Below are positions 28,713 through 33,032 of a stretch of 59,911 nt of DNA, piece after piece. Source of the DNA: Bacteroidia bacterium (GTDB lineage Bacteria > Bacteroidota > Bacteroidia > SpSt-205). Location: NCBI GenBank assembly GCA_025059535.1, contig JANXCX010000008.1:1-59911 (forward strand), written 5' to 3'. The position numbers and the translations under genes are program-made. The notes beneath the pieces are model-generated. The model had not been told where the DNA came from. It worked only from the letters and a program-made list of their open reading frames with translations, and did no database searches. Positions within the stretch are counted from its first letter, which is position 1. Each line of letters opens with the position of its first letter.

Positions 28713-29612
28713 CTATCCCTTAGGAAATCCGCGGAAAGGTCGTTGTTGAAGATAAGCTAAGATGGTTTCCGCCTGTTCCTGGGGTATAGCTATGTAGTTC
28801 CTATTCAGGCGAGTCTCTGGAGTATAGTGGAAGGGTTGGAGCCCTTCTTTCTGAGCTACATACCAGCGATACCCATAAGCTTCAAGGAAGCGTAAGATCT
28901 CTTCAGCCGCATAGCCCCACGGTAGCGTGCGAAATGACTCTACCTCTATCAACCATACTGGTCGTATCCGCGTCAGTACATCAATACTACGGCGTAGTAT
29001 ACTTAGTTCTGCACCTTCCGCATCCATCTTGATTAGGCGGATAGTATTGATAGAGTGCTCCTTTACATAATCGTCTAAAGTATAAGTTTGTATAGTAATA
29101 GTAGATTCAATATTGAATTGCGAATTAGGAGGTTTCAGGCTATTTAGGCCGCTTTCGTAAGAAGAAGATACAAAAAGTGTGGCTTCTCCTTTTTTATCCG
29201 TTAAGGCGTATGCCTCCACATGTACGATCTTTTCAAGTTTATTAGCCGCTATGTTGTTTAGTAGTCTGCTGCGCTCACGAGGAGAGGGCTCAAAACTTAT
29301 GACTTTTCCATAAGGTTTCACGCAGATATCAGCCAGCAGCGAATAAAGCCCGTGATGCGCGCCTATGTCTATAAAAATGTCTCCTTGCCTGAGAAATCGG
29401 GCTACAAAACGTAGGTCATATTCTTCTAGACGATGATCACGATGGAATAGAGCTAAGATAGAATTTTCATCAAAGGTAGGAATGAATCTAAATCCATATC
29501 GGGTCCTAATGGGTAGGTGAAACAGGTCTAGCAGCTTTACACGCCACCTAAATACTCTGAACGGCATCTCCTGAATTTTCTGCAGAAACCAGTTTTTCAG
29601 ACGCCTTAGCAT
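28713..29612 (-). CDS. FkbM-family methyltransferase
   Basis: 299 aa from the ATG at 29612. The SAM-binding core reads GDIFIDIGAHHGLYSLLA, then VISFEPSPRERSRLLNNIAA and IRLIKMDAEGAELSILR, the FkbM signature that ends in the DxEG motif. Such enzymes O-methylate sugars or polyketides; next to gmhA a glycan role is likely. The ATG is preferred over an in-frame TTG nine bases upstream because it follows an exact TACCTTTG box by 6 nt. It is more AT-rich in codon choice than its neighbours, a hint of transfer. A decayed copy of its first codons lies upstream (29670-29745). Confidence 0.87.
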   Translation of the reverse strand: MLRRLKNWFLQKIQEMPFRVFRWRVKLLDLFHLPIRTRYGFRFIPTFDENSILALFHRDHRLEEYDLRFVARFLRQGDIFIDIGAHHGLYSLLADICVKPYGKVISFEPSPRERSRLLNNIAANKLEKIVHVEAYALTDKKGEATLFVSSSYESGLNSLKPPNSQFNIESTITIQTYTLDDYVKEHSINTIRLIKMDAEGAELSILRRSIDVLTRIRPVWLIEVESFRTLPWGYAAEEILRFLEAYGYRWYVAQKEGLQPFHYTPETRLNRNYIAIPQEQAETILAYLQQRPFRGFPKG

Positions 29613-29618
29613 TGGACA

Positions 29619-29626
29619 CAAAGGTA
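29619..29626 (-). promoter_or_regulatory. TAnnTTTG box for fkbM
   Basis: TACCTTTG on the minus strand, exact, 6 nt before the ATG at 29612. Confidence 0.65.
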
Positions 29627-29669
29627 AAAGTAAGCGGAAACGGAAGGACTAAGGTTTTAGCTAGCTGGC

Positions 29670-29732
29670 CTATACTCTAAACCGCCATGCCTGAATTTTC
29701 TCGGAGCCACAGTTTTTTAGTCGGCCTATCAC
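29670..29732 (-). pseudogene. Decayed duplicate of the fkbM 5' end
   Basis: On the minus strand, GTG at 29732 opens a 20-codon frame ending in TAG at 29670: MIGRLKNCGSEKIQAWRFRV. The intact fkbM product begins MLRRLKNWFLQKIQEMPFRV. The DNA is alignable too (shared CTGAATTTTCT on the plus strand, and the promoter). It looks like a partial tandem duplication of fkbM promoter plus first codons, or the stump of a second methyltransferase gene. It may still be transcribed from its own exact box. Confidence 0.6.
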
Positions 29733-29737
29733 TAATT

Positions 29738-29745
29738 CAAAGGTA
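29738..29745 (-). promoter_or_regulatory. TAnnTTTG box in front of the fkbM remnant
   Basis: TACCTTTG, identical to the fkbM box, 5 nt before the remnant GTG at 29732. Confidence 0.55.
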
Positions 29746-29772
29746 GTAAGTAGAAATTTGCCGAGAGAAGAA

Positions 29773-30348
29773 TTAAGGTTCTGTCCAGTTAGCCTCAATA
29801 AGCTGGCATATGATGTGGCCGAGTAAGAGATGGGCTTCTTGGATGCGTGCGGTGTCATGCGAAGGTACACGAAGGAGGTAGTCGCACCAAGGGGCCATCT
29901 TATCCCCGCCAGCACCCGTAAACCCTATGGTAACCATGCCCAAAGCCCGGGCGGTTTCTAAAGCACGCAGGATATTGGGCGAGCTTCCTGAAGTGCTGAA
30001 AGCCCAGAGCAGGTCACCTGGCTTTCCCCATGCTCGTAAAAGGCGCGCAAAAACTTCCTCGTACCCGTAGTCGTTGGCTACTGCCGTAAGGTAAGAGGTA
30101 TTGACATGGAGGGCTTCGGCGGGTAGGGGCGCCCTATCGCGGTAATAGCGCCCAGTCAATTCGGCGGCTAGGTGTTGGGCTTCCGCCGCACTCCCGCCAT
30201 TACCGCACAGGTACAGCTTATGACCCTGACGGAGGGCCTGTAGCATGGTATAGGCTATGCGCTCAACCATCTCTACCATACCGGGTTGAAAAAGCGCCTC
30301 ATGAAGGCGCCAGGCTTCTTCTAATGCCTTTTGGATAATAGTCTGCAC
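29773..30348 (-). CDS. gmhA: Phosphoheptose isomerase / SIS-domain protein (GmhA)
   Basis: 191 aa from the GTG at 30348. GmhA converts sedoheptulose 7-phosphate to heptose 7-phosphate for the LPS inner core. Seen: LYLCGNGGSAAEAQHLAAEL, TGRYYRDRAPLPAEALHVN, LWAFSTSGSSPNILRALETA and the C-terminal IQEAHLLLGHIICQLIE. The GTG gives the standard family length and follows a near-match box by 5 nt; the longer frame to 30387 adds residues unlike the family. Confidence 0.93.
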   Translation of the reverse strand: MQTIIQKALEEAWRLHEALFQPGMVEMVERIAYTMLQALRQGHKLYLCGNGGSAAEAQHLAAELTGRYYRDRAPLPAEALHVNTSYLTAVANDYGYEEVFARLLRAWGKPGDLLWAFSTSGSSPNILRALETARALGMVTIGFTGAGGDKMAPWCDYLLRVPSHDTARIQEAHLLLGHIICQLIEANWTEP

Positions 30349-30353
30349 GGGCC

Positions 30354-30361
30354 TAAAAGTA
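30354..30361 (-). promoter_or_regulatory. TAnnTTTG-like box for gmhA
   Basis: TACTTTTA on the minus strand, one mismatch, 5 nt before the GTG at 30348. Confidence 0.45.
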
Positions 30362-30413
30362 AGAAATCTGCACTGACATTTTGTCATGGCGCGTAATTTG
30401 CCCCTTCCCCACC

Positions 30414-33032
30414 ATGAATTGGAACCAGTTTACCGTGCGGGCTCAAGAGGCCCTTCAAAGGGCGGTAGAAATAGCCCAATCCCATAATCATAGCACGGTG
30501 GAAAGCGGGCATCTGCTTTTAGCCCTTTTGCGGCGGGATGACCTGGTGACCCCTTTCCTCCTCCAAAAGGTGGGGGTATCGCCGGAGATGCTTTTAGCCG
30601 GCGCAGAGAAATGGCTGAACGAACAGCCTAAGCTTACCACGCCAGCTGGCACACCTAATCTGGGTCCTACGCTGAGTGAAGCGCTTCAGCGGGCTTTAGC
30701 CCATGCCGGCCGCCTAAAAGATACCTACGCCAGCGTGGAGCACCTCTGGCTGGCTCTAGTGGAAGGCAAAGAACCCATCGGACGCCTCCTGCGAGAGCGG
30801 GGCCTTACGGTAGAAGCGCTAGAGAAGGCTATTTTGGCGCTGCGAGGTGGGAAAAAAGCTACAGACCCTTCTGCCGAAGAGAAATTCAATGCGCTCCAGC
30901 GATATGCCCTAGACCTTACCGATCTGGCACGCCGAGGCAAACTAGACCCCGTTATCGGACGCGAAGAGGAGATCCGAAGAACTCTTCAAATTCTGGCACG
31001 TCGCACTAAAAATAACCCTGTCCTTATTGGTCATCCGGGGGTAGGTAAGACGGCTATCGTAGAGGGTATAGCCCACCGAATCGCCTTAGGCGATGTGCCA
31101 GAAAATCTCAAACATAAGCGCCTTTTTTCCTTAGACATGGCCGCCTTACTAGCGGGGGCCATGTATCGTGGCCAGTTTGAGGAGCGGCTCAAAGCCGTAA
31201 TCCAAGAAGTAGTACAGTCCGAAGGCCAGATTATCCTTTTCATTGATGAGCTGCATAACCTTATTGGTGCAGGCAAGGCGGAAGGCGCTATGGACGCCGG
31301 CAATATCCTCAAGCCAGCGCTGGCGCGCGGGGAATTGCGCGTAATTGGGGCTACCACCTTAGATGAATATCAAAAATATATTGAAAAAGACAAAGCCTTA
31401 GAGCGGCGCTTCCAGCCTGTCTATGTAGATGAGCCATCGGTAGAAGCGACCATATCCATCCTCCGCGGGCTTAAGGAGCGGTATGAAGTGCATCATGGGA
31501 TTCGGATTACCGATGAGGCGATAGTAGCCGCTGCGGAACTCTCACACCGCTATATTACCGATCGTTTTCTCCCCGATAAAGCCATAGACCTCATAGATGA
31601 GGCGGCGGCGCGCCTTCGGTTGGCTATTGACTCTTTGCCCGAGCCGCTGGATAATTTAGAGCGGCGCATCCGCCAGTTGGAAGTAGAGCGCGAGGCGCTC
31701 AAAATAGAGAAGGATGAGCGCAAGGTAGCTGAGCTCACGCGCACCTTGGAGGAACTTTATCAAAAGCGTCAGGCTCTGCGCAGCCAGTGGGAAGTGGAAA
31801 AGGCTTTGATCGGTGAAATTCGGGCCGCGCGCGCGGAGATAGAGCGGCTTCGCAATGAAGCCGAGTACGCCGAGCGGCAAATGGAGTGGGGGAAAGCGGC
31901 TGAACTGCGCTACGGCCGTATCCCAGCTGCCGAAAAGAAGATAGAAGAGCTTACCGCCCAGCTCAATACCCTGACGGAAAAGGGTGAAAGGCTCTTGCGG
32001 GAAGAAGTAACCGCCGAGGATATAGCTTCTGTCGTAAGCCGCTGGACAGGCATACCAGTGGCCAAAATGCTCAAGTCCGAACGGGAGAAACTCTTAGAGC
32101 TGGAGACTATCCTCCACCAGCGCGTAGTAGGCCAGGAAGAAGCGGTGCGGGCCGTGGCCCATGCCATTCGGCGTAGCCGAGCCGGCATCCAAGACCCTAA
32201 CCGGCCCATCGGTTCTTTTCTCTTCATAGGCCCTACCGGCGTGGGTAAAACCGAACTGGCCAAAGCCTTAGCCGAGGCCCTCTTCAATTCGGAGCAGGCG
32301 ATGGTGCGGATTGACATGTCCGAGTATCAGGAGAAGCACACGGTAAGCCGCCTAATTGGTGCCCCGCCAGGTTATGTAGGCTATGAAGAAGGTGGCCAGC
32401 TTACGGAGGCGATTCGCCGCCGCCCCTACAGCGTCATTCTATTGGACGAAATAGAGAAGGCTCACCCCGATGTCTTCAATATTCTCCTTCAGGTCTTAGA
32501 TGATGGTCGTCTTACAGATGGCAAAGGCCGCGTGGTCAATTTCAAGAATACTCTTATCATTATGACCTCTAATATTGGCGCACCGCTTATTATGGAGCGG
32601 CTTTCGGAAAGCGCGCTGGCGGATGAGGAAAGGCTAATGGAAGGGCTAAGGGCAGAGATTATGGGGCTTCTCAAGCGCACTTTTCGGCCAGAGTTTCTCA
32701 ATAGGATTGATGAGATTGTGCTCTTCAGGCCTTTGACCGCCGACCTTTTACGCCAGATAGTAGAGCTTCAGCTTCGGCAGGTGCAGCGGCGCTTAGAAGA
32801 GCAAGGCGTGGCCCTTGGCTGGGAGCCCGAAGTCGTAGAATACCTGGCGGAGGTAGGCTATGATGTGCAGTTTGGCGCACGGCCGCTTCGCCGGGCTATC
32901 CAACAGCTTATCCTAAATCCGCTTGCGGAGAAGCTCCTGCGCGGGGATGTGCCCGCCGAGGGCATTTACCTGCGGCAAGTGGAAGGCGTCATTTTCTTCA
33001 CGCCCATGTCCGTAGCCCAGGAAACCCGCTAA
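30414..33032 (+). CDS. clpB: ATP-dependent disaggregase ClpB
   Basis: 872 aa from the ATG at 30414 ([20 protein letters not shown], the standard ClpB start). Clp_N repeats occupy ~1-145; the first AAA+ domain has Walker A GHPGVGKT and Walker [15 protein letters not shown]; the coiled-coil middle domain spans ~400-520; the second AAA+ domain has [17 protein letters not shown], Walker [21 protein letters not shown] and the D2-small end. It rescues aggregated proteins with DnaK. A TAATTTG sequence lies 13 nt upstream, a poorer fit than other boxes; no CIRCE element was seen. A strong terminator follows. Confidence 0.97.

Follow-up and report, generated by a model that had tools for sequence, protein, structure and literature searches.

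Small tandem duplications arise by replication slippage or by illegitimate recombination between short homologies. The repeat described in this study lies upstream of an fkbM-family methyltransferase gene in a window of 59,911 nucleotides, which is the whole stretch of Bacteroidia bacterium DNA that was analyzed, and it includes a promoter together with the first codons of the gene. All features are given by their positions in this window, and the two genes fkbM and gmhA, the promoter boxes and the repeat copies are on the minus strand.

In the Bacteroidota, the −7 promoter element has the consensus TAnnTTTG, and the box of F. johnsoniae covers positions −12 to −5 (PMC6847099). Because of this placement, a gap of 4 nt between the box and the start codon puts the start codon at +1, and the mRNA is leaderless. 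In F. psychrophilum, leaderless mRNAs are reported to make up only 5.5% (PMC9723704). Of the leaders in F. johnsoniae, 87% exceed 10 nt (PMC6847099), whereas the boxes at the present locus are found only 5 to 6 nt before a start codon. No described case on point, of the kind reported here, was found in the literature.

Results

The intact gene downstream of the repeat (28713–29612) encodes a protein of 299 amino acids that is a clear member of the FkbM-family methyltransferases, and its profile scores are above the curated cut-offs for both PF05050 (88.8 bits vs. 22.7) and TIGR01444 (103.3 vs. 37.7). The gene upstream of the repeat (29773–30387) is a gmhA-like gene for a SIS-domain phosphoheptose isomerase (PF13580), and the score of its product against TIGR00441 (187.9 bits) is under the cut-off of 209.45. 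A preliminary description of the region had pointed out a second promoter box about 120 bp upstream of fkbM, 5 nt from a GTG codon, and this box is indeed present. The −7 box of fkbM, TACCTTTG, occupies positions 29619–29626 and precedes the ATG (29612) by 6 nt. The second box occupies positions 29738–29745 with all eight of its bases kept, precedes the GTG (29732) by 5 nt, and is 119 nt from the first.

The similarity is not confined to the boxes, and the repeat upstream of fkbM is confirmed. Copy A (29547–29671), which is used by the intact fkbM, and copy B (29669–29795) could be aligned from end to end, with 92 of the 117 aligned pairs identical (79%) and 18 gap columns. The score of this alignment is 44.5, compared with −7.0 ± 4.7 for shuffled sequences. 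Local alignment of the copies gave a score of 37, compared with 9.9 ± 1.7 and a maximum of 19 in 2000 dinucleotide shuffles, and no other stretch of the window scored above 23 against the repeat. Moreover, when the block of fkbM codons 1–20 was compared with the window without gaps, copy B was the best match (40/60 identical), and the next-best 60-mer in the whole window reached 30/60. Thus, the preliminary claim that the DNA of the two copies matches, promoter included, was borne out by an alignment better than chance, and the match is wider than had been noted. As a control, adjacent blocks were compared throughout a 341-kb sample of the same genome (16 stretches and the window, with 231 genes of at least 150 amino acids), and the comparable matches that were inspected were only neighboring tRNA genes or repeats within coding sequence, such as those of repeat proteins. 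No tRNA was found at the repeat itself. An assembly artefact is very unlikely given the 21% divergence between the copies.

The two copies have the same orientation, are more similar than expected by chance, and abut at 29669–29671; the arrangement is head-to-tail. The copied unit, of approximately 125 bp, comprises the last codons of gmhA, the spacer, the promoter, and fkbM up to codon 22, and it therefore extends beyond the limits first assigned to the repeat. Copy B consists of the real gmhA end, which reads ...E-A-N-W-T-E-P-stop, the spacer, the TACCTTTG box, and decayed fkbM codons 1–20 or so. In copy A, a decayed look-alike of the gmhA end, which belongs to no gene, is followed by the spacer, the box, and fkbM codons 1–22. 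The part that corresponds to the gmhA end, upstream of the box, matches independently of the rest over a block of 29 nt, of which 20 are identical (shuffle p ~0.001), and a match of this quality is equalled by 0.14–0.22% of the window stretches. Two features of this part speak against a duplication, namely, that the match to the gmhA end is short (29 nt) and that the spacer separating it from the box can be aligned only with gaps of 3, 5, and 3 nt. The trinucleotide AGG marks both outer ends, in gmhA (29795–29793) and in codon 22 of fkbM (29549–29547), as well as the junction between the copies (29671–29669). At this inner junction the end of one unit is joined to the start of the next, with sequence like fkbM codons 20–22 followed by sequence like the gmhA end.

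From the GTG (29732), copy B can be read as a stub frame of 20 codons (29670–29732), MIGRLKNCGSEKIQAWRFRV, followed immediately by the stop codon TAG (29672–29670). The preliminary description had left it open whether this frame was part of a tandem partial duplication or a stump left by a second gene for a methyltransferase. According to the latter reading, two fkbM paralogues once lay in tandem, and the upstream one was deleted except for its promoter and its first 20 codons. This would agree with the alignment of the stub with the fkbM start over 20 codons with no net gaps, and with the presence of multiple fkbM copies in many relatives. However, the sequence past codon 20 of copy B has no similarity to fkbM codons 21–60 beyond chance (score 7, p = 0.96); what follows resembles the gmhA end and not fkbM, which disfavors a stump. 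Furthermore, the match to the gmhA end in copy A would have to be a coincidence, a deletion joining exactly such points would be an extra event, and a search of related genomes for two adjacent fkbM genes at this locus, which had been proposed as a check, found none among the relatives examined. We consider the stump unlikely, and the tandem partial duplication, with its end-to-end match, its gmhA tail, and its AGG trinucleotides, is the part of the earlier alternative that we retain. The relatives examined also bear on the duplication itself: none of them has a single fkbM beside gmhA, so that a single-copy ancestor of this arrangement is unseen among them, which counts against the duplication reading.

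The copied segment combines a promoter and start codons, which would be expected of a portable module, and the insertion of a mobile or dispersed promoter element ahead of fkbM could be imagined on this ground. However, a DNA search of the genome with a threshold of E ≤ 0.001 detected no copy beyond these two, and no inverted repeats occur at the ends of the repeat. A permissive DNA search returned weak matches (E 0.2–1) in 8 of 11 genus genomes, including the genome itself, but the four that were opened proved to be chance matches in unrelated sequence. Such a module is extremely improbable. The earlier statement that promoter and start codons had moved as a single unit therefore holds in the sense that the two were copied together in place, but not in the sense of a mobile module.

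The spacing between box and start codon was surveyed in the 341-kb sample. In all, 72 TAHHTTTG boxes were followed by an in-frame start at a distance of up to 60 nt, and 51 of them were located 3–7 nt before the start, with a gap of exactly 4 nt in 26 cases; GTG was the start codon at 12 of the 51 sites. Two permuted control motifs yielded no more than 12 boxes between them, of which 9 were at 3–7 nt, and although these controls are few, the excess of TAHHTTTG in number over the permuted motifs is clear. No −33 element appeared in the averaged upstream sequence of this genome. The boxes of both copies fit the revised consensus TAHHTTTG and have the 3–7 nt spacing; judged by these sequence features, they fit the predicted class of leaderless mRNAs. 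The same spacing was also observed in three other sampled genomes of the family (G005, G007, and G011; 23 of 29 boxes), but it did not prevail in two of the genomes from other lineages that had the most boxes, G012 (same order; 2/10) and G052 (0/6); the corresponding numbers were 1/6 in G033 and 3/4 in G013, all of these being small samples. In the window, TACCTTTG occurs 9 times vs. 2.05 expected, and a third occurrence on the minus strand is located within the fkbM coding sequence (29471–29478).

The intact box raises the question of whether copy B has been maintained by selection because it tunes the expression of fkbM through a second promoter of the leaderless kind and a leader peptide of 20 codons. 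The box with all its bases kept, the GTG at a typical distance, and the frequency of GTG among such sites could be cited in favor of this reading. However, at approximately 21% divergence an 8-base box survives intact by chance in about 15% of cases (0.79^8), so its integrity is no evidence of selection. The differences between the stub and the fkbM start are spread over the first, second, and third codon positions (7/5/8) with no bias to third positions, and the stub therefore gives no indication of constraint at the protein level. In addition, shuffled sequences fold better than the leader RNA (z = +1.39), which matches no Rfam family. A structured RNA leader or riboswitch was rejected for the same reasons, the structure not being unusual. 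Selection on copy B thus appears very unlikely. Only slightly less doubtful is the reading that copy B functions as a leaderless promoter in its own right and gives a 20-codon leader peptide as well as a leadered fkbM mRNA; if it did, a chance microduplication would have provided one gene with both leaderless and leadered transcripts.

The surroundings of the repeat bear on the history of fkbM. The GC content of the gene is 43.6%, vs. 54.0% for the window, which places it among the lowest 1% of 900-nt stretches. Its nearest orthologues, from two genus relatives (the Bacteroidia MAGs SKYB116 and SKYG57; 52% and 48% identity), are found in different neighborhoods and have no neighbor in common with this fkbM. 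Searches located gmhA in eight further genomes of the genus (63–66% identity), in none of which fkbM follows it. Because of its low GC content, the lack of shared neighbors, and its absence from the side of gmhA in relatives, fkbM was probably acquired. At least one genus relative (L039), and apparently also another (L035), retains the divergent pair of gmhA and clpB (29773–33032); therefore, these two genes look like old neighbors and fkbM looks like the newcomer. Searches of plasmid and viral sequences returned only distant fkbM homologues.

Compared with its two nearest orthologues, in which the initial Met aligns near M16, the FkbM protein has an N-terminus that is approximately 15 residues longer. 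The additional stretch (29568–29612) is wholly inside the duplicated unit, and the duplication is a possible source of this extension. We do not claim this origin because some distant FkbM homologues also align from query residues 1–9.

Discussion

We regard the repeat as most likely the relic of one old tandem microduplication that took place once fkbM was already situated downstream of gmhA. In the order of events that we infer from the sequence, fkbM, apparently acquired, would first have been placed downstream of gmhA. A head-to-tail duplication would then have copied the segment of approximately 125 bp that begins in the last codons of gmhA, includes the fkbM promoter, and ends with codon 22 of fkbM. 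Its probable mechanism is slippage during replication, or a comparable illegitimate event, between the AGG trinucleotides. As evidence of slippage, a microhomology of three bases is weak and only suggestive. Such a duplication would have left both flanking genes intact, since the gmhA end is supplied by copy B and the fkbM start by copy A. The inner parts, namely, the fkbM start in copy B and the gmhA end in copy A, would have been without function and free to drift to their present identity of approximately 79%. The box of copy B may still fire, perhaps weakly, and, if so, would yield an additional fkbM transcript whose leader is approximately 120 nt long.

By itself, this is an ordinary small and old tandem duplication. 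In a lineage with leaderless mRNAs, the promoter and the start codon constitute a single short segment that cannot be divided, and with a box 3–7 nt before the start, the copying of a promoter necessarily copies the start codon; therefore, no special mobile unit is needed to explain why the two were duplicated together. Stub frames, extended N-termini, or dual promoters could originate from duplications of this type.

Compared with known small tandem duplications, nothing essential differs. As in those cases, a unit of approximately 125 bp is arranged head-to-tail, the AGG trinucleotide is found at its ends, the flanks are intact, and the inner copies are decaying. The unit at this locus happens to span the end of one gene, a promoter, and the start of the next gene.
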